Of a stretch of DNA of 12,943 nucleotides, positions 228-12,832 are shown in pieces; position 1 is the first letter of the stretch, and each line of letters opens with the position of its first letter. The stretch is from Aquabacterium sp. A3 (lineage in GTDB: Bacteria; Pseudomonadota; Gammaproteobacteria; Burkholderiales; Burkholderiaceae_C): positions 1-12,943 of the forward strand of contig NZ_JBBPEV010000008.1 in NCBI RefSeq assembly GCF_038069945.1, written 5' to 3'. The notes below the pieces were generated by a model. It ran no database searches. It had not been told where the DNA came from and worked only from the letters and a program-made list of their open reading frames with translations. Both the position numbers and the translations under genes were made by a program.

Positions 228-304
228 GCGCGGATTGACACGTCAAGTGCAACACCCAAAAATGCAGGCTCACACAGCACCAAAACCTTCCACTCCGCGC
301 CCCA
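228..304 (+). repeat. Module X copy 1 (cassette 3'-end repeat)
   Basis: Repeat of about 76 bp that abuts attC and follows different genes in eight cassettes. Its parts are GCGCGGATTGACA, then CGTCAAGTGCAACAC, an A-rich run, GCAGGC, and AAAACCTTCCACTCCGCGCC immediately before the R'' box. TTGACA at 235-240 matches a sigma-70 -35 box, and the hexamer 17 bp downstream is AAAAAT, only 4 of 6 to TATAAT. TTGAC-AC-GTCAA forms a short inverted repeat in this copy. Function is unknown. Confidence 0.85.
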
Positions 305-422
305 GCCTAACTGTCAGGTCAACGCGGACGCAACCAAGGGCCATGCCTTCGGCATTTTCATGGCCCTTGGTTGTACCCTCCGCCCTAAAGGGCTCCGGCG
401 CCGGTTACCTTGGTAGTTAGGC
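305..422 (+). repeat. attC site 1 (major type)
   Basis: Integron recombination site of 118 bp. R'' is GCCTAAC (305-311) and R' is GTTAGGC (416-422), fitting RYYYAAC...GTTRRRY; the integrase cuts after the G at 416. Inside, L'' GGTCAAC pairs with L' GTTACC, leaving one extrahelical C. The centre is a perfect 15-bp stem, CAACCAAGGGCCATG with CATGGCCCTTGGTTG, around a GCCTTCGGC hairpin. A second small hairpin, GCCC-TAAA-GGGC, lies on the right arm. Orientation shows that cassettes read left to right. Confidence 0.97.
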
Positions 423-1042: not shown

Positions 1043-1090
1043 CGGAACTGGGTTCAAATTGAAGAGGCAACACTCTGCCTACGCGTCCCA

Positions 1091-1208
1091 GCCTAACTGG
1101 GCGGTCAAGCGGACGCCAACACAGGCCATGCCTCCGGCATTCTCATGGCCTGTGTTGGTGCCCTACGCACCTTCGGTGCTCCGGCGCCGCTTACCTTGGT
1201 AGTTAGGC
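1091..1208 (+). repeat. attC site 2 (divergent subtype)
   Basis: 118 bp with standard R'' and R' boxes but a different interior. The L boxes are GGTCAAGCGG and CCGCTTACC, a compensated C-to-G / G-to-C change relative to the major type that keeps the extrahelical C. The central stem is CCAACACAGGCCATG with CATGGCCTGTGTTGG, again perfect over 15 bp. The right-arm hairpin is GCACC-TTC-GGTGC. It lacks the CCTTCCACTCCGCGCC flank upstream, having only a CGTCCCA remnant. Confidence 0.95.
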
Positions 1209-1933: not shown

Positions 1934-2010
1934 GCGCAGATTGACACGTGAAGTGCAACACACAAAAATGCAGGCAGCCGCACTATCAAAACCTTCCACT
2001 CCGCGCCCCA
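1934..2010 (+). repeat. Module X copy 2
   Basis: Begins GCGCAGATTGACACGTGAAG, with TTGACA at 1941-1946 and AAAAAT 17 bp downstream. It starts 30 bp after the stop codon of the two-TM gene and runs up to attC 3. Confidence 0.85.
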
Positions 2011-2128
2011 GCCTAACTGTCAGGTCAACGCGGACGCAACCAAGGGCCATGCCTTCGGCATTTTCACGGCCCTTGGTTGTGCCCTCCGCCCTGGCGGGCT
2101 CCGGCGCCGGTTACCTTGGTAGTTAGGC
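2011..2128 (+). repeat. attC site 3 (major type)
   Basis: 118 bp. R'' is 2011-2017 and R' is 2122-2128. The central stem is fully paired (CTTGG variant) and the right-arm hairpin loop is TGGC. Confidence 0.97.
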
Positions 2129-2157
2129 CTTCGTTTCCGGAACTCTCTGGAAGTCGA

Positions 2158-2505
2158 ATGAGCAGTATTCGGAAGGCTCTGGAAGCCTGGTTTGGTATCC
2201 ACTGCCTTGCCCTTTTGAACGGTTTCAACGCGCGCCGAACCTGCAGCACGGCACGCATGGGGTCTTACTTTCGCCGCTCTGGTTGGCCGTCTGTCCTTCG
2301 GCAGCCTGCTCACCATTCAGCAGCGCTCAAGTGCCACTCGCCATCGGCCTTTGGGCTCAACAACGTCGGCGCTCTTCCACCAGGCCGAGGCGTCTGGCAC
2401 ACTGATCACAAACATCAAAGGGAGCGTCTATGCAGCATCACTGTTCATCGAACCACGGCCGGTTTGCCGTGTGCTCCACGCTCTCTCCTTCGCGCCACAG
2501 CCTAA
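2158..2505 (+). CDS. Family A cassette ORF, copy 1 (115 residues, coding status uncertain)
   Basis: Begins MSSIRKALEAWF and contains FNARRTCSTARMGSYFRRSG and SVLRQPAHH. It ends at TAA 2503-2505, supplied by the R'' box of the next attC. GGAAG lies just upstream of the ATG. The same start and first 60 or so residues recur at 4496, 8222 and 8781, so the cassette is truly conserved. However, changes in the N-terminal region fall mostly on codon positions 1 and 2. In the 3' part they fall on third positions of a different frame, the one reading SGTLITNIKGSVYAASLF. That frame is open from about 2217 through attC to TAG 2609-2611 but has no ATG. The cassette could encode a frameshifted relic, a structured RNA or an overlapping gene pair. 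No known family recognised. Confidence 0.35.
   Translation: MSSIRKALEAWFGIHCLALLNGFNARRTCSTARMGSYFRRSGWPSVLRQPAHHSAALKCHSPSAFGLNNVGALPPGRGVWHTDHKHQRERLCSITVHRTTAGLPCAPRSLLRATA
2393..2499 (+). repeat. Module Y copy 1 (107-bp cassette 3'-end repeat)
   Basis: Runs from TCTGGCACACTGATC to CTTCGCGCCACA, abutting attC. It contains AAAGGGAG five bases before ATG 2430, which opens a 61-codon frame crossing the whole attC to the TAG in R'. Five copies of identical length exist in the window, one of them behind the HNH gene. Confidence 0.85.
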
Positions 2506-2617
2506 CTGTCAGGTCAACGCGGACGCAACCAAGGGCCATGCCTTCGGCATTCTCATGGCCCTTGGTTGTCCCCTTCGCCCTGGCGGGCTCCGGCGCCGGT
2601 TACCTTGGTAGTTAGGC
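2500..2617 (+). repeat. attC site 4 (major type)
   Basis: R'' 2500-2506, R' 2611-2617, CTTGG stem variant, right-arm loop TGGC. Has GTCCCC where most copies have GTGCCC after the stem. Confidence 0.97.
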
Positions 2618-2647
2618 TTCCAAAAAGAACCGCAGCATCTAATTTAC

Positions 2648-2654
2648 AAAGGGA
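2648..2654 (+). promoter_or_regulatory. Ribosome-binding site for the GTG-start HNH gene
   Basis: AAAGGGA, nine bases upstream of GTG 2664. It supports GTG as the start of the HNH protein, which has no in-frame ATG before its first zinc-binding cysteine pair. Confidence 0.65.
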
Positions 2655-2663
2655 CCGCGACCA

Positions 2664-2996
2664 GTGAACCGTTGGAACATTCCGCCTGACCTAGAGCAAT
2701 ATGTAAAGGCTAGAGACGGTCGCTGCGTCTACTGCCAGCTTGACTTTTCCCTGCCAGCGAATAGCAGAGGCATGCGCCCGTCGTGGGAGCATATCGTCAA
2801 CGACGAACGAATCATCACGCGCGCCAATATTGCTCTATGCTGCATCTCATGTAATGCGAGCAAAAGCGCCAAGCCGCTCCATCAGTGGCTGCAGTCTAAG
2901 TATTGCGCCCGTAAAGGCATCAGCGCCGAGTCTGTCGCCGAGGTCGTTAAACAAGCACTTGCTAGTCCACCGAGCGCCCTTCCTATACAGTGCTAG
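2664..2996 (+). CDS. HNH-type endonuclease-like protein
   Basis: 110 residues, GTG start. The visible fold is a compact HNH/treble-clef nuclease: C21-x-x-C24 (GRCVYCQLDF), then W41-E42-H43 (PSWEHIVND) at the catalytic beta strand, then N55 and C60-x-x-C63 followed by N64 and K67 (LCCISCNASK). These match the CxxC...EHI...N...CxxCN pattern of HNH proteins, whose metal-coordinating His acts as general base on DNA. No second domain is present, only a short helical tail ending IQC. Stand-alone HNH cassettes may be nucleases or zinc-binding relics; the general base is E42-H43 rather than the usual D-H. Module Y follows behind it, and an overlapping module Y frame starts at GTG 2990. Confidence 0.8.
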   Translation: MNRWNIPPDLEQYVKARDGRCVYCQLDFSLPANSRGMRPSWEHIVNDERIITRANIALCCISCNASKSAKPLHQWLQSKYCARKGISAESVAEVVKQALASPPSALPIQC

Positions 2997-3046
2997 CAGC
3001 ACCGTACACCATCCAAAAAAACCTACGCAGCAAAGCAATCAAGGTG

Positions 3047-3153
3047 TCTGGCAAACTGATCGCAAACATCAAAGGGAGTAGCCGTGCAACATCAATGCTC
3101 ATCGAACCACGGCCCGTTTGCCGTGTGCTCCACGCCCTCTCCTTCGCGCCACA
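3047..3153 (+). repeat. Module Y copy 2 (behind the HNH gene)
   Basis: Same 107-bp length and end points as copy 1, but attached to an unrelated gene. GTG 3084 follows AAAGGGAG and opens the frame that crosses attC to TAG 3267-3269, nine bases before the next cassette's ATG. The alternative frame is open from GTG 2990 to TAG 3263-3265. Confidence 0.85.
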
Positions 3154-3271
3154 GCCTAACTGTCAGGTCAACGCGGACACAACCAAGGGCCATGCCTTCG
3201 GCATTCTCATGGCCCTTGCTTGTGCCCTCCGCCCTGAAGGGCTCCGGCGCCGGTTACCTTGGTAGTTAGGC
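3154..3271 (+). repeat. attC site 5 (major type, CTTGC variant)
   Basis: R'' 3154-3160, R' 3265-3271. The right arm of the central stem reads CCCTTGCTTG, giving one C-C mismatch against the left arm. Left arm has GGACACAACC instead of GGACGCAACC. Right-arm loop TGAA. Confidence 0.97.
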
Positions 3272-3277
3272 AACTCC

Positions 3278-3595
3278 ATGACATCGACCGCAACTAGCCT
3301 CGATCTCTACATTCAGTCCGCAGAAGCACAAGCTGTAATTCCAGTTTGCGTTGCGGCTGATCCGATCTACGCAAACACAAAGGAGCAATTGGAAGCGTGG
3401 CTGTCCAAGCATTCCGCAACGCTTAAAGATGGAGAGAATCAGGCGAAAGCGCAAGGCATGCTCAATGCGGGCGCAGCGAACATCAAGACGTTCGCGACTG
3501 TTAAGGCTCAGATGCTGACCCAGTTGCCACCCGACGATCAACGCCGACGATGTAGCGAAGTCGTAGAGCGTCTGAAAGATGAAGTCAAGCGCTAA
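3278..3595 (+). CDS. Small soluble protein of unknown function
   Basis: 105 residues, predicted mostly helical: LDLYIQSAEAQAV, then a Cys-containing turn (VCVAADPIY), EQLEAWLSKHSATL, a central AKAQGMLNAGAANIKTFATVKAQML stretch (positions about 57-80), and a charged C-terminal helix RCSEVVERLKDEVKR. There is no signal peptide or membrane segment. The two cysteines are 65 or so residues apart. ATG 3278 lies only six bases after the R' box, so no room exists for a separate ribosome-binding site; AGG inside R' (3268-3270) is seven bases upstream. I recognise no family. Cassette spans 3266-3794. Confidence 0.7.
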   Translation: MTSTATSLDLYIQSAEAQAVIPVCVAADPIYANTKEQLEAWLSKHSATLKDGENQAKAQGMLNAGAANIKTFATVKAQMLTQLPPDDQRRRCSEVVERLKDEVKR

Positions 3596-3606
3596 TCAAA
3601 TCCATC

Positions 3607-3682
3607 GCGTGGATTGACACGTGAAGTGCAACACCCAAATTGCAGGCCGTCGTACTATCAAAACCTTCCACTTCGCGCCCCA
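3607..3682 (+). repeat. Module X copy 3
   Basis: TTGACA 3614-3619, preceded by GCGTGGA; 17 bp downstream is AAATTG. Starts 11 bp after the stop of the 105-residue gene and ends at attC 6. Confidence 0.85.
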
Positions 3683-3800
3683 GCCTAACTGTCAGGTCAA
3701 CGCGGACGCAACCAAGGGCCATGCCTTCGGCATTTTCATGGCCCTTGGTTGTGCCCTCCGCCCTCACGGGCTCCGGCGCCGGTTACCTTGGTAGTTAGGC
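3683..3800 (+). repeat. attC site 6 (major type)
   Basis: R'' 3683-3689, R' 3794-3800, fully paired CTTGG stem, right-arm loop TCAC. Its sequence appears identical to sites 12 and 13. Confidence 0.97.
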
Positions 3801-3807
3801 TCATCCA

Positions 3808-4299
3808 ATGAGAACACTCCGCAAACTCGCTGCCGCAGCCTCTTTCGTTGCGCTGTTGCTCACCTTGCTGTTTGCAAGCCAACTCGCACTTGTGCCGCAT
3901 ACGGTCGAAAACGGAGCCCTAATCTCTCGTGCATTCTCCGCCAGCGCGGCCTTCATCAAGTCATTCCAAGCTGCCAATCGTCGCTTGCCAAATGACGACG
4001 AATTTGCGACTTGGAAGGCTCAACAGAAAGGTGTCTTACCAATGGTTGAGGGCGTGAAGCTCACCTCACCGAACAACCTGCCATTGGATGCACAAGAAGT
4101 TTTCGGAGCGGCGCCTGCCGGCAGCTTCGCGCTATCCCTGTGGCGCGGTGAATGGCATGAGCACTACGCACCATGGTCTCAAGAGAGCACTGTCGATAAC
4201 CCCGCTGGACTTTATGCAAGCACAATTGGGCTCGTGCTGATCGCAGGCTTTTCTACAGTTGCTTTATGGAAATTCGCAAAAAGCGGATCTGCCAGTTGA
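3808..4299 (+). CDS. Two-TM membrane protein of unknown function
   Basis: 163 residues. TM1 is about residues 8-29 (LAAAASFVALLLTLLFASQL) after a basic MRTLRK start. TM2 is about 136-154 (YASTIGLVLIAGFSTVALW) near the C-terminus, followed by KFAKSGSAS. The loop of about 105 residues should be periplasmic by the positive-inside rule. It includes FIKSFQAANRRLPNDDEFATW and SFALSLWRGEWHEHYAPW. The RLPxDxEFxxW segment resembles the mature region of pilin-like or type II secretion pseudopilin-related cassette proteins, but no pilin leader is visible, so I do not assign it. The start, ATG 3808, is eight bases after AGG of R'. Cassette spans 3795-4460. Confidence 0.8.
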   Translation: MRTLRKLAAAASFVALLLTLLFASQLALVPHTVENGALISRAFSASAAFIKSFQAANRRLPNDDEFATWKAQQKGVLPMVEGVKLTSPNNLPLDAQEVFGAAPAGSFALSLWRGEWHEHYAPWSQESTVDNPAGLYASTIGLVLIAGFSTVALWKFAKSGSAS

Positions 4300-4349
4300 A
4301 ATGCAAAGGCGGCTCATGAGTAGATCGAAGAGTTCAGCACCTGTTCCCA

Positions 4350-4466
4350 GCCTAACTGGTCGTTCAACGCGGACGCCACTACAGGCCATGCCTTCGGCAT
4401 TCTCATGACCTGTAGTGGTGCCCTCCGCGCTTCGCGCTGCGGCGCCGGTTAACTAGGGCGTTAGGC
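4350..4466 (+). repeat. attC site 7 (divergent subtype, 117 bp)
   Basis: R'' 4350-4356, R' 4460-4466. L boxes are GTTCAAC and GTTAAC, compensating each other while keeping the extrahelical C. The spacer near R' is CTAGGGC instead of CTTGGTA. The central stem CCACTACAGGCCATG pairs with CATGACCTGTAGTGG with one G-A mismatch; the right-arm hairpin is GCGC-TT-CGCGC. No module X or Y precedes it. Confidence 0.95.
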
Positions 4467-4495
4467 CTTCGTTTCCGAAACACTCTGGAAGTCGA

Positions 4496-4843
4496 ATGAG
4501 CGATTTTCGGAAGGCTCTGGAATCCTGGTTTTATGCGCAAGGCATGGGCTTTTTGAGCGGTTTCAACGCGCATCGAACCTGCAGCACGGTACGCATGGGG
4601 TCTTACTTTCGCCGCTCCGGTTGGCTGTCTGTCCTTCGGCAGCCTGCTCACCAATCAGCAACGCCAAAGTGCCACATGCCATCGGCCTTTTGGCTCAACA
4701 GCATCGGTGCTCTTCCACCAGGCCGAGGCGTCTGGCACACTGATCGCAAACATCAAAGGGAGCGTCTATGCAGTACTGCTGTTCATCGAACCATGGCCAG
4801 TTTGCCGCGTGCTCCACGCCCTCTCCTTCGCGCCACAGCCTAA
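4496..4843 (+). CDS. Family A cassette ORF, copy 2 (115 residues, coding status uncertain)
   Basis: Same length as the copy at 2158 and also closed by TAA in the R'' box. It begins MSDFRKALESWF and keeps STVRMGSYFRRSGW, SVLRQPAH and the RGVWHTDRKHQRERLCS segment. The cassette (4461-4949) is exactly 489 bp, like copy 1. In a second frame the stretch LTFAAPVGCLSFGSLLTNQQ continues into LFHQAEASGTLIANIKGSV and through attC; that frame shows silent third-position changes against copy 1 in its 3' half. Which frame, if any, is translated cannot be settled here. Confidence 0.35.
   Translation: MSDFRKALESWFYAQGMGFLSGFNAHRTCSTVRMGSYFRRSGWLSVLRQPAHQSATPKCHMPSAFWLNSIGALPPGRGVWHTDRKHQRERLCSTAVHRTMASLPRAPRPLLRATA
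4731..4837 (+). repeat. Module Y copy 3
   Basis: 107 bp. ATG 4768 stands five bases after AAAGGGAG and opens 61 codons ending at TAG 4951-4953 within R'. Confidence 0.85.
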
Positions 4844-4955
4844 CTGTCAGGTCAACGCGGACGCAACCAAGGGCCATGCCTTCGGCATTCTCATGGCCCT
4901 TGCTTGTGCCCTCCGCCCTCACGGGCTCCGGCGCCGGTTACCTTGGTAGTTAGGC
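4838..4955 (+). repeat. attC site 8 (CTTGC variant)
   Basis: R'' 4838-4844, R' 4949-4955, one central mismatch, right-arm loop TCAC. Confidence 0.97.
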
Positions 4956-4971
4956 TCTCTAGGAAAAATCG

Positions 4972-5409
4972 ATGAAACGGCTCTCTATACACTTTATGCA
5001 ACGCATTCTATTCAGCGCTATCGTAATCCTTACCATCTTGTCGCCTAACTTCTCAAAAGCAAACGAAGTCACGCCCAGCAGAGATGTCCCGATCGCATTG
5101 ATCGATGTATCCTCCAGAATGGAAGCAATGTGTTTCGATCTCGTTCGAAAACTAACATCAAAAGCCGATTTCCAACCTGCCTTCAGCCACCGAGAACCTC
5201 AACCTTCCGAGACGTGTCGTTGCGCCATTGAATCTATCCGTTCCGATCAAAAACTACGTCGCCAATTCGACGGAGAGGAAGCTCTCATGAAAGAGCGACT
5301 CAAGTCAGAACAGTTGCAATCATATTTCCTGCTCAAAACAACCACATCCATACTTTCTTGCCTAGCATCCGATTTCAACATGACCCTTGAGGTCATTGAC
5401 TTGAAATAA
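4972..5409 (+). CDS. Exported cysteine-containing protein of unknown function
   Basis: 145 residues with a signal peptide: basic MKRLSIHFMQR, hydrophobic core about residues 12-24 (ILFSAIVILTILS), and a likely cleavage after SKA at residue 30. The mature protein has four cysteines, at about 54, 82, 84 and 130 (a CRC pair at 82-84). That is an even number and would suit two disulfides in the periplasm. The rest looks helical (ALMKERLKSEQLQSYFLLKTTTSILSC). AGGA at 4961-4964 lies seven bases before ATG 4972. The HRExQxSExCRCA...I region with paired cysteines is reminiscent of small secreted cassette proteins but no family is recognised. Cassette spans 4950-5682; 5410-5494 carries nothing I recognise. 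Confidence 0.82.
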   Translation: MKRLSIHFMQRILFSAIVILTILSPNFSKANEVTPSRDVPIALIDVSSRMEAMCFDLVRKLTSKADFQPAFSHREPQPSETCRCAIESIRSDQKLRRQFDGEEALMKERLKSEQLQSYFLLKTTTSILSCLASDFNMTLEVIDLK

Positions 5410-5494
5410 ACTGGGGGCTTGCATCGCGCGAAGAATCAAAAAACCAATAAATCCAAGCCATGCCAACAAGCCCGCCCCTCCACTATGTGCCCAA

Positions 5495-5570
5495 GCTCGG
5501 ACTGACACTTGAAGTGCAACACGCAAAATGCAGGCAGCCGTACTATCAAAACTTTCCACTCCGCGCCCCA
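5495..5570 (+). repeat. Module X copy 4 (degraded -35-like box)
   Basis: CTGACA (5502-5507) replaces TTGACA, and the leading GCGCGG is GCTCGG. The rest, including GAAGTGCAACACGCAAAATG and the CCACTCCGCGCC end, is retained. Confidence 0.8.
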
Positions 5571-5688
5571 GCCTAACTGTCAGGTCAACGCGGACGCAAC
5601 CAAGGGCCATGCCTTCGGCATCTTCATGGCCCTTGGTTGTGCCCTCCGCCCTGGCGGGCTCCGGCGCCGGTTACCTTGGTAGTTAGGC
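5571..5688 (+). repeat. attC site 9 (major type)
   Basis: R'' 5571-5577, R' 5682-5688, fully paired CTTGG stem, right-arm loop TGGC, TCTTCATGG between the two stem arms. Confidence 0.97.
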
Positions 5689-5807
5689 CTCATCAATTCT
5701 CACTATTCGCCACCCATGCCTAGTTTCCCCACCATCTCCCGCCGTTCAGACACTGCGTCAACGAAATCTCATCATCTAACCAACCCACACCAGTTGAAGG
5801 AAATCAA

Positions 5808-7271
5808 ATGAGCGATCCCTACAAAAAGAAGTATCAAGTCTTCATTAGCAGCACGTTCAGCGACCTTGAAGCAGAGAGACTGTCGATCATGAAGGCAATG
5901 ATGGGGATAGACTGCATACCAGCTGGAATGGAGGACTTCCCTGCGTTTGATGAGGCGCAACTCTCATATATCAAGAGAGTAATTGATGAAAGCGACTACT
6001 ATATTCTGATAATCGGCGGACGCTACGGCAGCCAGGATGAGGATGGAATAAGCTTTACAGAGAAAGAGTTCCAATATGCCAGAGAGAAAAAGAAGCCAAT
6101 ACTAGCCTTCATTAACTCTGATGTGGGATCCCTCCTTGCCAAGCACATTGACGACGATCACTCAAAGCGCGCAAAACTTGAACGATTCAAGGAGGAAGTC
6201 AAGCGCAGTCGCATTGTAAAATTTTGGACACGATCCGAAGAGCTTCCAGGTCTCGCGCTGATCGCACTAAATCAAGCAATCAGGTTGGTACCACAGATTG
6301 GATGGGCAAGAGGTGATTCGCTTGAGGTCCAGCAGCTAGTCTCAGAGCTAAGTCAACGAAGGCAGGAAAATCATATACTCAGATCTGAAATTGAGAAGCG
6401 CGATATAGAAATTGGGGAGCTACGTGATGTCTTGGGCCGCGACGCCGACGATGCTTCCGGACTATATTCAAAGGCGGCGGCTATCGCCGCCAAAGGTGAC
6501 CAAATTGAAACCGGAGATCGTGAAAGCATAAGACTACTTCTGGAGCGAATTGTCAAACTGGCATTGGAGCTAAAGGTTCCTCCTAATGACCTATACAACT
6601 CGGGAATAGCGGCCGCGAATGTGGACTTGGACTATCTTTCACTGCAACTGCATACATTGGCACACCATTCCCAGGACTCCCTAAGCCACTTGATGGCTAG
6701 GTTGCACAGGGAAACCAGCTCTGGTGTTAGACTCCTAATTGTCTCTGGGAATGAGGGCCTGGAGATTCAGCGGGATACAAGTGCAACCTCGCAAGCTATT
6801 CGCAAAGAAGCCTTGAATGCGACTCTGGCAATGTTCGCCGACGCACCGGTTGCACAGTGTGAAATCGTCTACTCTCAAGGCTGGAATATATGCCAAGTAC
6901 ACCGCGAGTCCGGCGCCTCGGAGTTGGCTCTAAGCCTCCTGACCGCGTCCTACTACGCAAGAATCAATGAGATGGACAAGATTGAAGAGATTCCTGATAA
7001 CGATTTGCTCAGCGCAAAGATCGACTGGTCTAAGCAAATTGGGAAGCCCGTTCCGTCCTATCTCCTTCAGAAGATTGCCGAGTTTACGATGTTTCTCTCT
7101 AAGCACGACTGGATGGACCATACAAAACATTGGATCCGACTTGCAGAACGTCAAAACGCCATCGAACCACCAAATGCGACATGGTACGAATCGACGGTTA
7201 TGGAATTAAACAAATCTTTGGCGATGATACGTGCCGTTGAGGCAAGAATTGCACAGCAAATCGACATTTAG
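5808..7271 (+). CDS. DUF4062 domain protein, candidate defence protein
   Basis: 487 residues. Residues about 9-105 carry the DUF4062 signature: YQVFISSTFSDLEAER at the first strand and helix, PAGMEDF, then VIDESDYYILIIGGRYGS and GISFTEKEFQYA. DUF4062 is related to TIR/flavodoxin-like folds and is found at the N-terminus of STAND-type and other prokaryotic immunity proteins. It is followed by a linker, a coiled coil at about 170-215 (LVSELSQRRQENHILRSEIE, then EIGELRDVLG) and a helical C-terminal region of about 270 residues with no motif I recognise. There is no Walker A box, so it is not a complete STAND NTPase. GAAGGA (5796-5801) is six bases before ATG 5808, and the leader 5689-5807 holds no gene. 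At 1464 bp it is large for a cassette and AT-richer than its neighbours. Cytoplasmic; a role in phage defence is inference. Confidence 0.9.
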   Translation: MSDPYKKKYQVFISSTFSDLEAERLSIMKAMMGIDCIPAGMEDFPAFDEAQLSYIKRVIDESDYYILIIGGRYGSQDEDGISFTEKEFQYAREKKKPILAFINSDVGSLLAKHIDDDHSKRAKLERFKEEVKRSRIVKFWTRSEELPGLALIALNQAIRLVPQIGWARGDSLEVQQLVSELSQRRQENHILRSEIEKRDIEIGELRDVLGRDADDASGLYSKAAAIAAKGDQIETGDRESIRLLLERIVKLALELKVPPNDLYNSGIAAANVDLDYLSLQLHTLAHHSQDSLSHLMARLHRETSSGVRLLIVSGNEGLEIQRDTSATSQAIRKEALNATLAMFADAPVAQCEIVYSQGWNICQVHRESGASELALSLLTASYYARINEMDKIEEIPDNDLLSAKIDWSKQIGKPVPSYLLQKIAEFTMFLSKHDWMDHTKHWIRLAERQNAIEPPNATWYESTVMELNKSLAMIRAVEARIAQQIDI

Positions 7272-7390
7272 TTGCCTGAGGTTCGTCGATGAAGACGTAA
7301 CAATTTGGCGCGCGTGCATGCCACGATCCCTAAAACACCTAAGGAGTGGGATTATCGAATTGCAGATTCATCTGCGTAGTCATTAATGAG

Positions 7391-7467
7391 GCGCGGATTG
7401 ACACATCAAGTGCAACACCCAAAAATGCAGGCAGCCGTACTATCAAAACCTTCCACTCCGCGTCCCA
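7391..7467 (+). repeat. Module X copy 5
   Basis: TTGACA 7398-7403 in GCGCGGATTGACACATCAAG; AAAAAT follows 17 bp downstream. The 119-bp stretch 7272-7390 between the DUF4062 stop and this repeat has no recognisable element. Confidence 0.85.
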
Positions 7468-7585
7468 GCCTAACTATCAGGTCAACGCGGACGCAACCAA
7501 GGGCCATGCCTTCGGTATTCTCATGACCCTTGCTTGTACCCTCCGCCCTCACGGGCTCCGGCGCCGGTTACCTTGGTAGTTAGGC
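7468..7585 (+). repeat. attC site 10 (CTTGC variant, extra mismatch)
   Basis: R'' 7468-7474, R' 7579-7585. Has CTATCAGG instead of CTGTCAGG after R'', and CATGACCC in the right arm, so the stem carries two mismatches. Right-arm loop TCAC. Confidence 0.97.
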
Positions 7586-7593
7586 CTCTCCAT

Positions 7594-7597
7594 GGAG
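7594..7597 (+). promoter_or_regulatory. Ribosome-binding site for the GTG-start three-TM gene
   Basis: GGAG, eight bases before GTG 7606. It decides between GTG 7606 and the longer frame that is open back through attC 10. Confidence 0.6.
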
Positions 7598-7605
7598 CAG
7601 AACGC

Positions 7606-7974
7606 GTGAAACGCCTCGGAGCACAAACGTTGCGATGGGCCTTGTTAACAATCGGGCTTGTCGCTTGCCTCTACTTCCTCAATGACGCCGCATTCAGCGG
7701 CTGGATGGCAGGCGGCCCGCCAGGCCCACATAAGGGAGGCTGGGAGTTTCGCGCCCAATCAAGCCTCCTTCGAGCCGTGGGCTCATTGCTGCTAGGCATT
7801 GCCGCCTTTCGCGCGGTCAAGCAAGTCCCAAACGTTTCGCGAACAACATGGGCCGCTGGGGCCTTAGCCCTATTCGCCCTCCTAGCACCATTGGCCCAAC
7901 GCGCCTTGGCTATCGACAAATGCCTCGATAGCGGCGGCAAATGGAGCCCGCAAGCACTGGAGTGCGAGCGCTAA
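7606..7974 (+). CDS. Three-TM membrane protein with C-terminal CLDSGGKW motif
   Basis: 122 residues from GTG 7606. Segments: TM1 about 8-25 (TLRWALLTIGLVACLYFL), TM2 about 53-70 (SLLRAVGSLLLGIAAFRA) and TM3 about 81-98 (TWAAGALALFALLAPLAQ). The tail IDKCLDSGGKWSPQALECER has two cysteines that may form a disulfide on the periplasmic side. A D-x-C-L-D-x-G-G-x-W...C tail is frequent in small Proteobacterial membrane proteins carried by cassettes, but I know no function for it. The region between TM1 and TM2 is Gly/Pro-rich (GWMAGGPPGPHKGGW). Cassette spans 7580-8186. Confidence 0.8.
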   Translation: MKRLGAQTLRWALLTIGLVACLYFLNDAAFSGWMAGGPPGPHKGGWEFRAQSSLLRAVGSLLLGIAAFRAVKQVPNVSRTTWAAGALALFALLAPLAQRALAIDKCLDSGGKWSPQALECER

Positions 7975-7998
7975 TGGCCAAGAAGCACAACCACCGCG

Positions 7999-8074
7999 GC
8001 GCGGATTGACACGTCAAGTGCAACACTCAGAATTCAGGCAGTCGTAATGCAAAAACCTTCCACTCCGCGCCCCA
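7999..8074 (+). repeat. Module X copy 6
   Basis: TTGACA 8006-8011, followed 17 bp downstream by AGAATT. The middle reads CAGTCGTAATGCAAAAACC rather than CAGCCGTACTATCAAAACC, a variant shared with copy 7. Confidence 0.85.
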
Positions 8075-8192
8075 GCCTAACTGTCAGGTCAACGCGGACG
8101 CAACCAAGGGCCATGCCTTCGGCATTCTCATGGCCCTTGGTTGTGCCCTCCGCCCTACCGGGCTCCGGCGCCGGTTACCTTGGTAGTTAGGC
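8075..8192 (+). repeat. attC site 11 (major type)
   Basis: R'' 8075-8081, R' 8186-8192, CTTGG stem, unique right-arm loop TACC. Confidence 0.97.
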
Positions 8193-8221
8193 CTTCGTTT
8201 CCGGAACTCTCTGGAAGTGGA

Positions 8222-8749
8222 ATGAGCAGTATTCGGAAGGCTCTGGAATCCTGGTTTGATGGCCAAGGCATGGGCTTTTTGAGCAGTTTCAACGCGCGCC
8301 GAACCTGCAGCACGGCACGCATGGGGTCTTACTTTCGCCGCTCTGGTTGGCCGTCTGTCCTGCGGCAGCCTGCTCACCCATCGGCGGCGCCCAAGTGCCA
8401 CATGCCATCGGCCTTGTGGGCTGCCTGTCCTGCGGCAGTCAGCTCAACATCCAGGGGCGCCAAAGTGCCATTCGCCATCGGCCTTCTGCTTAAAGAAGCT
8501 CCGTGGTCTTCCACCAAGACCGCGCGTCTGGCAGACTCTCTGGAAACATCAAAGGGAGCGTCTGTGCAGCATCACTGTTCATCGAACCACGGCCAGTTTG
8601 CCGTGTGCTCCATGCCCTCTCCTTCGCGCCCCAGCCTAACTGTCAGGTCAACGCGGACGCAACCAAGGGCCATGCCTTCGGCATTTTCATGGCCCTTGGT
8701 TGTGCCCTCCGCCCTCACGGGCTCCGGCGCCGGTTACCTTGGTAGTTAG
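8222..8749 (+). CDS. Family A cassette ORF, copy 3 (175 residues, frame-shifted by duplication)
   Basis: Starts MSSIRKALESWF like the copies at 2158 and 4496 and shares FNARRTCSTARMGSYFRRSG. It carries two adjacent 70-bp units, 8346-8415 and 8416-8485, both ending GCCATCGGCCTT. The other two copies have a single unit. Since 70 is not a multiple of three, the downstream frame changes: the ORF passes into the QHHCSSNHG frame of module Y and through attC, ending at TAG 8747-8749. About 37 of its residues are therefore attC translation. That a frameshift leaves the ORF open on both sides may be chance. Cassette is 559 bp (8187-8745). Confidence 0.3.
   Translation: MSSIRKALESWFDGQGMGFLSSFNARRTCSTARMGSYFRRSGWPSVLRQPAHPSAAPKCHMPSALWAACPAAVSSTSRGAKVPFAIGLLLKEAPWSSTKTARLADSLETSKGASVQHHCSSNHGQFAVCSMPSPSRPSLTVRSTRTQPRAMPSAFSWPLVVPSALTGSGAGYLGS
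8527..8633 (+). repeat. Module Y copy 4
   Basis: 107 bp, with GTG 8564 after AAAGGGAG. Replaces ACTGATC by ACTCTCTG in its first third, a variant shared only with copy 5. Confidence 0.85.
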
Positions 8750-8751
8750 GC
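8634..8751 (+). repeat. attC site 12 (major type)
   Basis: R'' 8634-8640, R' 8745-8751, fully paired CTTGG stem, loop TCAC. Identical to site 13 as read by eye. Confidence 0.97.
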
Positions 8752-8780
8752 CTTCGGTTCCGAAGCTCTCTGGAAGTCAA

Positions 8781-9308
8781 ATGAGCGGTTTTCGGAAGGC
8801 TCTGGAATTCTGGTTTGGCGGCCTCGGCCAAGGCTTTTTGACAGGTTTCAACGCGCACCAAAACTGCAGCACGGCACGCATGGGGTCTTACTTTCGCCGC
8901 TCTGCTTGGCTGTCTGTCCTTCGGCAGCCTGCTCACCACCGCGCGGCACCAAAGTGCCACATGCCATCGGCCTTGTGGGCTGCCCGTCCTTCGGCAGTCA
9001 GCGCAACATCCAGGGGCGCCCAAGTGCCATTCACCATCGGTCTTTTGGCCAAACACGCTCGGTGGTCTTCCACCAAGACCGCGCGTCTGGCAGACTCTCT
9101 GGAAACATCAAAGGGAGCGTCTGTGCAGCATCACTGTTCATCGAACCATGGCACGTTTGCCGTGTGCTCCACGCCCTCTCCTTCGCGCCCCAGCCTAACT
9201 GTCAGGTCAACGCGGACGCAACCAAGGGCCATGCCTTCGGCATTTTCATGGCCCTTGGTTGTGCCCTCCGCCCTCACGGGCTCCGGCGCCGGTTACCTTG
9301 GTAGTTAG
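8781..9308 (+). CDS. Family A cassette ORF, copy 4 (175 residues, tandem neighbour of copy 3)
   Basis: Begins MSGFRKALEFWFGGLGQGFL, then FNAHQNCSTARMGSYFRRSA. It has the same 559-bp cassette length and 70-bp duplication (8905-8974 and 8975-9044) as copy 3. Here the second frame is also uninterrupted: 8906-9304 reads LVGCPSF...SVVFHQDRASGRLSGNIKG and on through attC, whereas copy 3 has a TAA in that frame. The main ORF ends at TAG 9306-9308 inside R'. Copy 3 and copy 4 differ by scattered substitutions and no length change, so this looks like an old tandem duplication or a paired acquisition rather than a recent copy. No known family. Confidence 0.3.
   Translation: MSGFRKALEFWFGGLGQGFLTGFNAHQNCSTARMGSYFRRSAWLSVLRQPAHHRAAPKCHMPSALWAARPSAVSATSRGAQVPFTIGLLAKHARWSSTKTARLADSLETSKGASVQHHCSSNHGTFAVCSTPSPSRPSLTVRSTRTQPRAMPSAFSWPLVVPSALTGSGAGYLGS
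9086..9192 (+). repeat. Module Y copy 5
   Basis: 107 bp. GTG 9123 follows AAAGGGAG. Differs from copy 4 in only a few bases, such as CATGGCACG in place of CACGGCCAG. Confidence 0.85.
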
Positions 9309-9310
9309 GC
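9193..9310 (+). repeat. attC site 13 (major type)
   Basis: R'' 9193-9199, R' 9304-9310, loop TCAC, fully paired CTTGG stem. Appears base-for-base identical to sites 6 and 12. Confidence 0.97.
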
Positions 9311-9335
9311 CTCTTCTTAAGACCCGCGACAATCC

Positions 9336-9698
9336 ATGATCATGCAAATCCCAGGCATCAACATCTTGGCGAAAGCAGACAGAGGGGCGTTTTTTCATTT
9401 CGAGGTCGTAGCAGACTCCGAGCAAGTTGAATCTGCTACGACCGCACTCATTGCCCACCTACCTGAACTTGGCGAAGTCTCGATATTGGAACCTGGCGGG
9501 GCCGAATGCTACCGAGAATGCCGACGCATCGGCAATGAGCTTCAAATCAAGCGCGGTTGTCGTGGTGCCCATGGAACATGGCAGAAGGCGACGCTTGCTG
9601 AGTCAGTCAATTGGCTTGCCGATGGTATGCGGCTCTCAGCAAAAAATCCTAGGCGGGAGCAATGCATCATGAGCCTGCCACATGGCAGCTTTAGTTGA
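9336..9698 (+). CDS. Small soluble protein of unknown function
   Basis: 120 residues, with no signal peptide or membrane segment. The N-terminal half looks alpha/beta: MIMQIPGINILAKA, FFHFEVVADSEQ, SATTALIAHLPELGEVSIL. A Cys-rich middle follows (ECYRECRRIG, then IKRGCRGAHGTW at about 70-85), and then a helix (LAESVNWLADGM). Four cysteines in all, three of them within about 20 residues. ATG 9336 is followed by another in-frame ATG at 9342; no ribosome-binding site is clear before either. I recognise no family. Cassette spans 9305-9852, and its attC is the chimeric site 14. Confidence 0.7.
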   Translation: MIMQIPGINILAKADRGAFFHFEVVADSEQVESATTALIAHLPELGEVSILEPGGAECYRECRRIGNELQIKRGCRGAHGTWQKATLAESVNWLADGMRLSAKNPRREQCIMSLPHGSFS

Positions 9699-9740
9699 AC
9701 GCAGTGAATAGCATTTCAGACGTATGTGCACCTATCCACA

Positions 9741-9858
9741 GCCTAACTGTCGGTTCAACGCGGACGCCAACACTGGCCATGCCTTCGGCATTTTCATGGC
9801 CCTTGCTTGTACCCTCCGCCCTCGCGGGCTCCGGCGCCGGTTACCTTGGTAGTTAGGC
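9741..9858 (+). repeat. attC site 14 (apparently chimeric)
   Basis: R'' 9741-9747, R' 9852-9858. The left half (CGGTTCAACGCGGACGCCAACACTGGCCATG) resembles the divergent sites 2 and 7. The right half (CATGGCCCTTGCTTGTACC, loop TCGC, GGTTACCTTGGTA) is the major CTTGC type. As a result only the inner seven base pairs of the central stem match, and the L'' box GGTTCAAC pairs with GTTACC only with a mismatch or a two-base bulge. No module X or Y precedes it. Confidence 0.95.
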
Positions 9859-9904
9859 GTCACAAGTCCCGTCAGTTGCCAGCTAGCATCATCGAAAGAA
9901 AAAC

Positions 9905-10312
9905 ATGGGTGGTCTCGATCCAAGCCTCATAGTCACCGCGATCTCCGCCATTCTTCAGGCAACGCAAACTTGGTACGCACACAAAGATGCGCGCCAAGCT
10001 GCTGAAGAGCTTGACAAGATCATTGGCTCAGGGGCTGACGATCCCGAACTCGTTGAAGCCATGGCACAGCTGCATTCATTTGTGCCAGCCGAAGTAATCG
10101 ATGCACTTCTGGCTCGGATCGAGCAGCAATGGGTTCGCTACGCCGAAGTTCTCGAGGCTCCGCCTGGCGCCTTTACCGAAGCAGAAATAGATGCCGCGAC
10201 TCAGGCAGCAAAGGCCGGAGTGTGCCGAGAACTTCAACGCTTGCGTTCGATTACCGGAGCACTGCCACCCGGTAAGCTTTCTCAATGGTGGGAGCTATAC
10301 AAATGCCCATGA
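9905..10312 (+). CDS. Helical soluble protein of unknown function
   Basis: 135 residues, almost entirely helix-forming: an amphipathic N-terminal helix (LIVTAISAILQATQTWYA), a charged DARQAAEELDKII helix, then VEAMAQLHSF, VIDALLARIEQQWVRYAEVL and EIDAATQAAKAGVCRELQRL, ending QWWELYKCP. Two cysteines lie near the C-terminus. There is no signal peptide; the first helix is too interrupted for a confident TM call. ATG 9905 is preceded only by GAAAGAAAAAC. No family recognised. Its AT content is close to that of neighbouring cassettes. Cassette spans 9853-10502 and ends in module X. Confidence 0.75.
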   Translation: MGGLDPSLIVTAISAILQATQTWYAHKDARQAAEELDKIIGSGADDPELVEAMAQLHSFVPAEVIDALLARIEQQWVRYAEVLEAPPGAFTEAEIDAATQAAKAGVCRELQRLRSITGALPPGKLSQWWELYKCP

Positions 10313-10313
10313 C

Positions 10314-10390
10314 GCGCAGATTGACACGTGAAGTGCAACGCTTAAAATTATAGGCATTCCTAATGCAAAAACCTTCCACTCCGCGCCCCA
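10314..10390 (+). repeat. Module X copy 7
   Basis: TTGACA 10321-10326, AAAATT 17 bp downstream. It starts one base after the stop codon of the preceding gene, the closest junction of the eight. Confidence 0.85.
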
Positions 10391-10508
10391 GCCTAACTGT
10401 CAGGTCAACGCGGACGCAACCAAGGGCCATGCCTTCGGCATTTTCATGGCCCTTGCTTGTGCCCTCCGCCCTGGCGGGCTCCGGCGCCGGTTACCTTGGT
10501 AGTTAGGC
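10391..10508 (+). repeat. attC site 15 (CTTGC variant)
   Basis: R'' 10391-10397, R' 10502-10508, one central mismatch, loop TGGC. Confidence 0.97.
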
Positions 10509-10552
10509 TTTTCGCAAACACACAACTTAGCCATTTTTTAGGCCTTAAAGCA

Positions 10553-10963
10553 ATGCGATTACTCTCACCGCGAATTCTCTTGCTCGCAACAATCATTGCA
10601 ACCATCGGAGCACAAGCTGCAACGATGAATAAATGCATCGTAAATGGCAGTGTCTCGTATCAACAAAATCCCTGCCCCTCGACCAAAGCCCGAAAAGATC
10701 CAACACTTGAGGAGCTTAACGCGGCGGAAAAGAAACGCGAAAAAGCCCCCATCAGCACAGCACCCACCACAGCTGTGTTAGCAAAGGAGGCAACGGTCGC
10801 CTCGCCTACTGTTTCCAGCAGCTACCGTTGCGACGGTCGCCAATATTGTTCACAAATGGGTTCATGCGCGGAAGCCAAGTTCTTTCTAAAGAACTGCCCT
10901 GGTGTAAAAATGGATGGCAACAACGATGGAGTCCCCTGCGAAGCTCAATGGTGCGATGATTAA
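10553..10963 (+). CDS. Exported DUF4124 + Excalibur-domain protein
   Basis: 136 residues from ATG 10553. The signal peptide covers about residues 1-22 (MRLLSPRILLLATIIATIGAQA). Residues about 24-45 (TMNKCIVNGSVSYQQNPCP) match a DUF4124-type module: a K/Y-C-x-x-x-G strand, a YQxxPCP end and two cysteines at 28 and 41. A Lys/Pro-rich linker follows (about 46-90). Residues 91-134 form an Excalibur domain: YRCDGRQYCSQM-SCAEAKFFL-CPGVKMDGNNDGVPCEAQWC. DGNNDGVPCE is its Ca-binding-like loop and there are six cysteines. Excalibur domains occur at the end of secreted proteins such as micrococcal-type nucleases; here no nuclease is present. The frame is open upstream through attC 15, but only ATG 10553 gives the signal peptide. 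Confidence 0.9.
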   Translation: MRLLSPRILLLATIIATIGAQAATMNKCIVNGSVSYQQNPCPSTKARKDPTLEELNAAEKKREKAPISTAPTTAVLAKEATVASPTVSSSYRCDGRQYCSQMGSCAEAKFFLKNCPGVKMDGNNDGVPCEAQWCDD

Positions 10964-11043
10964 TAAACAAACCATATACAGGCCAAAAGTTATAAATTAA
11001 AATACCATCATATGCACTTCAATACCTTCCACTCCGCGCCCCA

Positions 11044-11161
11044 GCCTAACTATCAGGTCAACGCGGACGCAACCAAGGGCCATGCCTTCGGCATTTTCAT
11101 GGCCCTTGCTTGTACCCTCCGCCCTGGCGGGCTCCGGCGCCGGTTACCTTGGTAGTTAGGC
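11044..11161 (+). repeat. attC site 16 (CTTGC variant)
   Basis: R'' 11044-11050, R' 11155-11161. Has CTATCAGG like site 10 and loop TGGC. Upstream, 11021-11043 keeps only ATACCTTCCACTCCGCGCC of module X; the TTGACA portion is missing. Confidence 0.97.
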
Positions 11162-11235
11162 CCCAAGCACAAAACCAGCCATGCTACCGAATAGACGGCT
11201 TGTCAAAATTCAATGAATCAACGGGAATTTCAGTA

Positions 11236-11649
11236 ATGCTTTATTGTCAAAGCTGCGACACCGACAACGACACATCAGCGCATAAATGCCGTGAATGCGG
11301 TTGTCCATACCTTATTCCGTACAAGTCAGTGCTAGTGCGAAGCGACGGGAAACGCGTCGGGATCAAGTCCGGCTTTTGTTGGCCAGCGGCAATATTTGGC
11401 TGGATGTGGACCGCATACCATCGAGCTTGGCGTCTGTCGCTCATCCTCGCAGTAACGGCTTTTGGCTTACTCGCTTTAGACCACCTGTTCTTTAGTAATA
11501 CTCAAAACCCTCTGTGGAGCTTACTAACCATCGGTGCATATGCTTCTTACATGTTCATCTGCGGAAAAAATGGGTACGCCCTATTAGAAAAAGATCTCCA
11601 AAGAGTTGACTACACTGCACTTATAAAGCCGCAGGCTAACGTACTATGA
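11236..11649 (+). CDS. Zinc-ribbon membrane protein (DUF2628-like)
   Basis: 137 residues from ATG 11236. The N-terminus is a zinc ribbon: C4-x-x-C7 (YCQSC) and C18-x-x-C21 (CRECG). Residues about 43-120 are DUF2628-like: SGFCWPAAIFGWMWTAYHRAW, TM1 about 68-86 (SLILAVTAFGLLALDHLFF), TM2 about 92-109 (PLWSLLTIGAYASYMFIC) and a final GKNGYALLEKDLQRVDY helix. The KSGFxWPAxxFGxxWxxYHRxW block is what I recognise from this family, whose function is unknown. GGGA at about 11223-11226 is nine to ten bases before the ATG. The frame is open back into attC 16, which I discount. Its stop (TGA 11647-11649) runs into the short CCTTCCAC flank of the next attC. Confidence 0.8.
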   Translation: MLYCQSCDTDNDTSAHKCRECGCPYLIPYKSVLVRSDGKRVGIKSGFCWPAAIFGWMWTAYHRAWRLSLILAVTAFGLLALDHLFFSNTQNPLWSLLTIGAYASYMFICGKNGYALLEKDLQRVDYTALIKPQANVL

Positions 11650-11671
11650 AAACCTTCCACTACGCGCCCCA

Positions 11672-11789
11672 GCCTAACTGTCAGGTCAACGCGGACGCAA
11701 CCAAGGGCCATGCCTTCGGCATTCTCATGGCCCTTGCTTGTGCCCTCCGCCCTGAAGGACTCCGGCGCCGGTTACCTTGGTAGTTAGGC
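11672..11789 (+). repeat. attC site 17 (CTTGC variant)
   Basis: R'' 11672-11678, R' 11783-11789, right-arm GCCC-TGAA-GGAC with one broken pair. Preceded by the short module X remnant AAAACCTTCCACTACGCGCC. Confidence 0.97.
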
Positions 11790-11811
11790 TCCCCACACCC
11801 TCGCGCCGATC

Positions 11812-12720
11812 ATGTCTAGTCTTCCCAGACACAATTCAGCCGACTCAGACTTTCCCCCAACTGAGCCGCTGCCCAACTTACCCATTTCACATCACCTCGA
11901 CCGCGCATTGTCACAACCAACAATATACAAGCCAAAAATAATTAAAACAAAAATCAAAATTTTCATAGCAACCCTATCGGCCACTATATTCTGGTGGTCG
12001 GCGATCGGCATCGCCTCGGGGCACGCCAATATGGCAATGAAGCGCGTCGGAGTGATCCACATATCTGGGACTCCCGCAATTCTATTCTCCCTAGCAATCC
12101 TAATACTAGCAGCCACTTTGGCAACATATATGATTGAGCATGATGATGCACCCAGTGTTGATGCAGCATACGCTCAGATGCGCAACAGGCTTGGATTCCT
12201 TGCTGCACTACTTGTCGTCGCATCTATAACTGTTGCCGCCCTTGAAAAATCGGGGAGCCTGCCGCGCACAGATGAGCGCATTGGATTAATGTCAATAGAA
12301 TTTATGAAGAATTTATTGACTTCGGATTTTGTGGCACTTACCCTGGCGCCACAAAAATCTGATTTGAAGCTCTGGTCTCTCGTTTCCAGCATGCCTGCTG
12401 CCGCCGTCGGAACAGTGTGGTTTCTACACAGCAAACTAACAGGCCATCGACACATAAATTTATTGTTTCGAATAGCCGCAACCCTTGCGATACCACCCCT
12501 ATGTATTCACGTTTTATACATTATAGCCGAGCTCTCAATACTATCCCAAAAAAGAGTAACCGACGCATCGGAAACATATTTCAGAGAGGCCATAGCACTC
12601 AACATGTTTCACCTCACCATGTCGGCATTAATGCTTGTTATGCTAATCGGGTCACTCCTTTTAAAGGAGGATAAACCAAGATGGCCCCACAAAAACCAGC
12701 GATCTCATTATCGCCGGTAG
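11812..12720 (+). CDS. Six-TM membrane protein of unknown function
   Basis: 302 residues. A Pro-rich N-terminal tail of about 45 residues (FPPTEPLPNLPISHHL) ends in basic KPKIIKTKIK. Six hydrophobic segments follow: about 49-69, 88-108, 128-145, 188-205, 218-241 and 264-284. The tail is basic (WPHKNQRSHYRR). Tail and N-terminus are both positive, placing both ends in the cytoplasm. A loop of about 40 residues between TM3 and TM4 (SLPRTDERIGLMSIEFMKNL...) is likely periplasmic or cytoplasmic-facing. I recognise no transporter motif. The coding region is AT-rich and unlike its neighbours (ATAATTAAAACAAAAATCAAAAT), consistent with a foreign origin. No ribosome-binding site precedes ATG 11812. 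Confidence 0.8.
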   Translation: MSSLPRHNSADSDFPPTEPLPNLPISHHLDRALSQPTIYKPKIIKTKIKIFIATLSATIFWWSAIGIASGHANMAMKRVGVIHISGTPAILFSLAILILAATLATYMIEHDDAPSVDAAYAQMRNRLGFLAALLVVASITVAALEKSGSLPRTDERIGLMSIEFMKNLLTSDFVALTLAPQKSDLKLWSLVSSMPAAAVGTVWFLHSKLTGHRHINLLFRIAATLAIPPLCIHVLYIIAELSILSQKRVTDASETYFREAIALNMFHLTMSALMLVMLIGSLLLKEDKPRWPHKNQRSHYRR

Positions 12721-12758
12721 GTCAATATATTAGTTAATTTCACACATCAACACCCCTC

Positions 12759-12832
12759 GCGGATTGACACTTTAAGTGCAACACTCAATATGCAGACAAA
12801 CGTACTATCAAAACCTTCCACCTCGCGCCCCA
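12759..12832 (+). repeat. Module X copy 8
   Basis: TTGACA 12764-12769 in CGCGGATTGACACTTTAAG. AATATG lies 17 bp downstream. Runs to the final attC. Confidence 0.8.

Follow-up and report, generated by a model that had tools for sequence, protein, structure and literature searches.

The stretch analysed here (the window) is the whole contig C8, 12,943 bases, of the 3.83 Mb genome of Aquabacterium sp. A3. Its cassettes form an array that belongs to a large chromosomal integron; the genus includes Aquabacterium fontiphilum. Eight of these cassettes end in the same 3' tail, module X, followed by the attC site. Module X is an IS30 derivative, not an insertion sequence (IS). Together with its attC it probably forms a non-autonomous unit with an IS30 terminal inverted repeat (TIR), made by loss of the IS body and joined by a transposase acting in trans to the R'' of other cassettes, where it would replace older attCs. 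On the sequences compared, X is more plausibly a substitute for attC in cassettes that already existed than an addition to bare genes. A broader claim, that attC is itself mobile, with IS30 transposase moving TIR-attC units into the R'' of other cassettes in an exchange independent of the integrase, and with an outward promoter (TTGACA) that may ride along, is given slightly less than an even chance.

The cassette array

The window holds 17 complete attCs, 16 of them 118 bp long. They are long, nearly palindromic and nearly identical to one another, and their complementary R'' and R' and terminal GTTAGGC identify the array as one of integron gene cassettes. Pieces of the array are also found on five other contigs of the same genome (C9, C11, C13, C24 and the start of C4), and the integrase gene is located on contig C5 (250161-251105), near the contig end, where the first cassette begins. 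The first and last 90 bases of C24 (locus L005) resemble reverse complements of each other, being either an assembly end or an inverted repeat. The genomes compared are mostly drafts broken at repeats, and the attC finders retained only part of the attCs in the scanned stretches.

Module X and its boundary

The eight copies of module X in the window are listed below, with their scores on the IS30 profile described in the next section. All of them had been recognised in an earlier reading of the letters of this DNA (the sequence-only reading), and their tips are the first positions given.

228..422 (+): X unit 1; TIR 228-256, spacer and block2 257-304, attC 305-422; 26.4 bits; empty site in genome G970
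1934..2128 (+): X unit 2; TIR 1934-1962, attC 2011-2128; 23.8 bits
3607..3800 (+): X unit 3; TIR 3607-3635, attC 3683-3800; 27.2 bits
5495..5688 (+): X unit 4; TIR 5495-5523, attC 5571-5688; 21.4 bits
7391..7585 (+): X unit 5; TIR 7391-7419, attC 7468-7585; 27.3 bits; behind a putative DUF4062 gene, as named in the sequence-only reading
7999..8192 (+): X unit 6; TIR 7999-8027, attC 8075-8192; 26.2 bits; an orthologous gene without X in G970
10314..10508 (+): X unit 7; TIR 10314-10342, attC 10391-10508; 21.8 bits
12757..12943 (+): X unit 8; TIR 12757-12785, attC from 12833, cut by the contig end; 25.7 bits; behind a gene earlier described as having six transmembrane segments

Each unit is composed of an IS30-family TIR, about 20 variable bases, a conserved block (block2) and attC. 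In the eight window copies the tip of the TIR lies 47-48 nt upstream of R'' and 1-119 nt downstream of the stop codon. The 21-mer core of X was identified 17 times in the genome of strain A3 (at most 3 mismatches), only on integron contigs (C8, C9, C11, C13 and C24), and the reversed pattern, used as control, gave 0 matches. DNA of module X had matches in only 3 of the 199 other genomes of the family, the TIR core (at most 1 mismatch) in 0 of 398 other genomes of the order, and the X core had no match in viral contigs; in plasmids, X with attC gave partial matches only, in two records.

A scan of ten integron stretches with a cut at 11 bits gave 28 X cassettes in eight of them, from the own genome, A. 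fontiphilum and a Methylomonas. Similar gene bodies among these formed four pairs, three being identical copies on other contigs of the own genome and the fourth a pair of orthologues. The 24 gene bodies, one of them only 94 bp long, are mutually without plus-strand blastn or blastp similarity at E <= 1e-3, in agreement with the earlier statement that X follows dissimilar genes; it also holds that exchange by the integrase at R' does not explain the common X tails. At the fetched loci, the module copies of X cassettes were not part of a longer homologous gene, as simple vertical descent would have it.

The left boundary of X is sharp. Across 29 non-redundant copies the bases upstream (-26 to -1) carry 0.02-0.34 bits per column, and the values from base 0 of X are 1.07, 1.78, 0.96, 1.26 and so on. 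Conservation extends from base 0 to about base 33, is lost over the next 20 bases and resumes at block2, with much higher conservation in the TIR columns than in the spacer. Deletions with ragged ends between adjacent cassettes, by which one gene acquires the 3' tail of the cassette after it, would fit the variable break points of module Y and of the block2 tails without a TIR (see below). As the origin of all common 3' modules such deletions are very unlikely, since X has a single sharp left end, at the TIR tip, behind 24 unrelated bodies and at two empty sites. Cassettes on the own contigs C13 and C24 (L004 and L005), with tips at 3065 and 4516 (reverse strand), present tandem TIR starts, GCGCGGATTGACAC and then ACGTGGACTGAGACGTGAAG, perhaps a second joint beside the first.

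An IS30-type end in module X

The left block of X corresponds in register to an IS30-type TIR. The profile behind this assignment was built from 33 TIR sequences of 17 elements in other genomes, with X excluded. Its loci were gathered by the transposase model NF033563 and the inverted repeats were read afterwards, which avoids circularity; the rows were picked by eye from 59 loci (L035-L093), leaving out L044, L045, L046, L048, L079 and one of the ends of L043, as well as the loci that showed no clear pair of repeats. The profile was run over 16 stretches, some of which overlap and several of which were chosen for holding X and oriented X-forward, so that the 30 sites found above 13 bits speak for IS30 likeness and position relative to R'', not for frequency. 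R'' follows 28 of these sites at a distance of 47-51 nt, their tips pointing to the gene, and the other two (L017 and L019) have no attC. Intact X copies score 14-28 bits and real TIRs, when left out of the profile, 9-40 bits. Among 2,881,440 positions in shuffled versions of five own stretches, none exceeded 15 bits and one exceeded 13 bits.

Elements with the same end were found outside the array. The six best of 10 plasmid records matched by the X 30-mer (blastn) do so in the same register; of four matches inspected by eye, three adjoin IS30-like coding sequence and the fourth (L032) has only a short IS30-like stretch, beside an IS5, while L033 has a second end in inverted order. In the genus, the left TIR of an IS30 element in G973 matches the commonest 29 bases of X at 28 of 29, and the transposase of this element is 59% identical to that of ISa (see below). 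The contig end L019 starts with the TIR of X (a 30-bp match to a window unit at 97%). Over 141 bp it is 91% identical to the G973 element, and by eye it runs into the C-terminus of an IS30 transposase. A fragment in G957 also has an X-type TIR (25/29). The suggestion that X could be a transposon end was thus well founded, the family being IS30 by profile, by plasmid matches and by the G973 and L019 elements. A chance resemblance might be argued from the best plasmid matches of the 30-mer, which taken alone have E values of 0.1-0.4; set beside the scan of shuffled sequence, the IS30 elements in the genus that carry X-type TIRs (G973, L019) and the empty sites, its likelihood is close to nil. 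The IS30 transposase between two TIRs by which an IS is recognised is lacking in X.

Other readings of these parts were considered. The X core as an independent repeat was suggested by the missing attC in L017 and L019; of these, only L019 is accounted for, as an IS30 end. In L017 (Azonexus fungiphilus, 2188-2216) a cassette-like gene is followed at once by an X-type TIR, behind which both attC and IS body are missing; by eye, an attC-like stretch precedes the gene. Block2 (CACTCCGCGC) as the tip of the other TIR was ruled out by the same letters on the gene side of the left end of ISa in G159 (L188), and an IS with a passenger gene by the absence of an inverse TIR at cassette 5' ends.

IS30 elements of related genomes

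IS30 transposase above the family cut-off was identified in 9 of 42 genomes of the genus. G159 contains two such elements, ISa in three copies and ISb in seven. The transposase of ISa matches NF033563 (298 bits) and the Pfam models HTH_38 and rve, and by this family match it is predicted to be an IS30-type DDE transposase. All three left ends of ISa follow GCC, and two follow CCCCAGCC, which places those two in R''; both visible right flanks continue with (GC)AGCCTAAC. The flank bases are AGC on both sides of the copy on contigs C7/C8 of G159, if these contigs adjoin, and GGC and AGC in the C17 copy. ISb has its right end at most 5 nt behind the R' GTTAGGC in the three visible flanks (contigs C3, C12 and C13), and the junction between attC and the next cassette is a possible hot spot for it.

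In G984 an IS30 element is located behind CTCCGCGCCCCA/GC (the slash marks the break), an R'' boundary. In G143, from another genus of the family, an IS30 right end directly precedes the GCCTAAC of an attC, with a transposase 54% identical to that of ISa; another copy (L178) lies behind GATGAC/GCC, which fits R'' by eye only. The array of G143 at L176 has long attCs (about 125 bp) at 1199, 1713 and 2310, the first of which directly follows the IS30 right end. In all these cases (ISa, ISb, G984 and G143) the elements sit where the X tips sit, at or just before the first bases of the attC core GCCTAAC.

The presence of IS30 copies between gene and attC in several cassettes also favours an alternative in which IS30 inserted first at the R'' of several cassettes and homologous exchange of the RecA type then spread one attC, with no transposition of units. 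The attCs of the window are long and nearly identical, and the unlike end bases of the C17 copy of ISa are such as exchange between copies would give. This course of events is nonetheless unlikely, the common TIR being only about 29 bp, the X units lacking the IS body that would supply homology, and their single inner joint lying 47-51 nt from R''.

Empty sites and left flanks

The joints proposed for the TIR-attC units can be compared with cassettes of G970 that lack X. Positions 1-227 of the window are the end of a cassette that is complete on the own contig C24; its match to contig C2 of G970 (460 bp, 98.5%) extends right up to the base that adjoins X. At this joint the own genome reads GCGCGGATTGACAC and G970 reads GCCTAACTGGTCGG, an attC of another type. 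The A. fontiphilum X cassette L098, of which the window X cassette at 7999 is a more distant orthologue, matches contig C78 of G970 over 413 bp at 90.8% up to the X tip, and beyond the match G970 continues with GCCTAACTGGGCGTTGCAGG, an 85-bp attC. At both sites the R'' of G970 (GCCTAACTGGTCGG or GCCTAACTGGGCGTTGC) begins exactly at the first base of X. A search of 31 unique X flanks against the loci retained gave no clean empty site besides these two; which state is the older, with or without X, would not follow from these two alone.

These sites modify what the sequence-only reading had made of the common tails. It had described homology that begins upstream of R'' and ends abruptly at the gene, and had taken attC with 25-107 bp as a unit appended to different genes, a trace of how cassettes are made, or else recombination between 3' ends. 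The sharp break is real, and attC with about 77 bp was joined as one unit to many unrelated genes. Where checked, the break falls at the R'' of another attC and not at the gene, so attachment to bare genes is not supported, nor is the link to how cassettes are first made: both X-less cassettes found have another attC, at whose R'' X starts.

At offset 0 the left flanks of the 29 copies are similar to the sequence found before R'' (p = 4e-4, based on 52 pre-R'' sequences from the same arrays, including a few that are block2- or Y-like), and of eight other offsets tried only -2 was under 0.05 (0.037). Clear single left flanks are those of L100 (CTTCGCGCCCCA/GC), L094 (CTCCGCGCCTCA/GCC) and L199 (CTTCGCTCCCCA/). 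The joints are mostly at GC/(CTAAC), and the adjoining gene differs from case to case. A gene at L190 (X at 2112) is also present on the own contig C9 (L002, TIR at 526, reverse strand) with 94% identity; X is found in both, decayed in the own genome, and the attC types differ, so that attC seems to change at or after R'' too.

Proposed origin of the units

The integrase moves cassettes through R'. In the proposed sequence of events an IS30 element would have inserted at the attC core in one cassette and would then have lost its body and its attC-side end, the gene-side TIR becoming fused to the 3' end of the cassette (about 20 nt of spacer, block2 and attC) to form the unit. IS30 transposase, acting in trans, would join the TIR tip of the unit to the R'' of other attCs and replace them. 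This may occur by either of two routes, both of which would fit: in the first a two-ended unit inserts and the integrase then excises the right half with the old attC, and in the second a deletion extends from the single TIR tip to the R'' of the neighbouring upstream attC. The integrase would afterwards carry gene and unit via R' as an ordinary cassette. The TTGACA of X-type TIRs may also give the units a promoter directed outward, at the next cassette.

The same motif leads to a different explanation, in which X was kept by selection as an outward promoter or another signal for the next cassette and its spread would reflect function, whatever first joined it. Six of the eight window copies contain a sigma-70-like site (TTGACA or CTGACA with xAxAAT at 16-17 nt, 9-11 of 12), the window has 14 sigma-70-like sites and its shuffles 8.0 +/- 3.0, and the TIR with the AAAA behind it is more conserved than the spacer. 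Even so, the conserved block exceeds the length of a promoter and is in register with the IS30 TIR, the second hexamer is weak and the joints exactly at R'' would be left unexplained; selection for a promoter is for these reasons an improbable account.

Several observations weigh against a TIR-attC unit joined by IS30 transposase. The conservation of the TIR could be that of a promoter instead of a transposon end. X reads TTGAC where the common IS30 has TTCAA, only 22 of 31 unique tips start with GC, decayed copies score 8.9-11.2 bits or are undetected at 7 bits (C4), and the left-flank signal is carried by about half of the 29 copies. On the right side of the X units no second TIR was found in scans of both strands (the sole minus-strand profile site, in L016, has 11.8 bits), which counts against the first route, and no complete two-ended TIR-attC-TIR unit was seen in the scanned stretches. 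IS30 transposase had no match in the own genome, and its absence there today counts against both routes. Among the elements of relatives, the target-site duplication of ISa is not clean in the C17 copy, the four visible ISb left ends have no attC in the 48 nt examined, and the G973 element, with its X-type TIR, is not at an attC core; other genus IS30 copies with visible flanks (L207, L208, L211, L213, L214, L053 and the fragment L216) are not at attC, nor is L210. Finally, 40 other integrase-anchored stretches (one own, one from the family and 38 from the class) contained no TIR-attC unit, with only 19 attCs recognised in them.

Module Y and other tails

The remaining tails of the window are the following.

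1046..1208 (+): attC (1091-1208) of a different type, preceded, 16 nt from its R'', by a weak TIR-like stretch (1046-1074); 6.0 bits, below the >7-bit cut; resembles class Z
2388..2499 (+): module Y in a family A cassette; start estimated from a 112-bp alignment; Y also before the attCs at 4838, 8634 and 9193
3042..3153 (+): module Y behind an HNH gene, common with family A cassettes; no TIR
11021..11161 (+): block2 and attC without a TIR
11629..11789 (+): apparently truncated X, lacking the TIR and keeping some of the spacer, block2 and attC; start by eye

Module Y comprises five copies in the window (attCs at 2500, 3154, 4838, 8634 and 9193), the number claimed before; the exact common length of 107 bp and the dissimilar hosts did not hold. 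Alignments of the HNH copy to those of family A span 112 or 108 bp. Y is the tail of family A cassettes; four of the five hosts belong to this family, so in the window Y joins only two unrelated cassette kinds. Family A itself has four copies there (cassettes ending at 2499, 4837, 8633 and 9192) and more on other own contigs. No TIR-like site was detected in Y cassettes, the profile scores being below 0. In other cassettes Y starts raggedly, at roughly 90, 90, 40, 35 and 25 bp by eye, and these break points fit deletion between neighbouring cassettes, which is the simplest account of Y. The remnant at 11646-11671, formerly taken as a shorter attachment event, retains part of the X spacer (GCAGGC...GTACTAT) and by eye looks like a truncated X.

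Further TIR-attC units were identified in relatives. Class Z comprises six units, most of them with a different type of attC; their TIRs score 21-31 bits and are 17-19 nt away from R''. A further unit, in G984, has its TIR 44 nt before R''. Together they suggest that the combination of TIR and attC arose more than once. By eye, the unit TIRs in G159 and G984 resemble those of the resident IS30 elements, as expected if a resident transposase serves the units. In three class Z units (L102:11839, L188:3436 and L189:3713) R'' is preceded by AAATCC..C, which has the look of a TIR tip in inverted orientation; class Z may therefore represent an entire IS30 reduced to about 46 bp.

Comparison with known systems

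A transposase-joined TIR-attC unit would give existing cassettes a route by which they change attC, with joints testable at the level of single bases. How cassettes acquire attC is described as largely unknown in an excerpt of PMC5371416. If the proposal is true, the attC type is no safe marker of cassette origin, which bears on methods that infer the source of cassettes from attC, of which an excerpt of PMC8352920 gives an example.

With the IS30 family the X units share TIR sequence, length and register; they differ in having no transposase, one TIR only and an attC inside the unit. Miniature inverted-repeat transposable elements (MITEs) are non-autonomous elements that keep the TIR and have lost the body. 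X is alike in all of these respects, whereas MITEs are defined by two TIRs and only the gene-side TIR was found in X. Group IIC-attC introns have been proposed to help make cassettes. They too are mobile elements associated with attC (PMC7923331, in part); the window differs in that an Rfam scan found no family at threshold and that a DNA transposon end is present instead.

The IS1111-attC group comprises insertion sequences that target the attC of cassettes (Tetu and Holmes 2008; Post and Hall 2009, as cited in excerpts of PMC11187229 and PMC12444791), and those excerpts mention no attC-carrying unit. An excerpt of PMC9330008 names IS30 and IS1111 in one sentence and ascribes the preference for attC to IS1111; in the Creative Commons-licensed literature of PubMed Central no paper was found that connects IS30 with the targeting of attC. 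The transposase of ISa differs from this group, its six NCBIfam matches being IS30, IS481, IS21, IS630, IS3 and a sigma-factor model, none of them IS110/IS1111. Insertion at attC is the feature that the IS1111-attC group has in common with ISa, ISb and the elements of G984 and G143, though not with that of G973.

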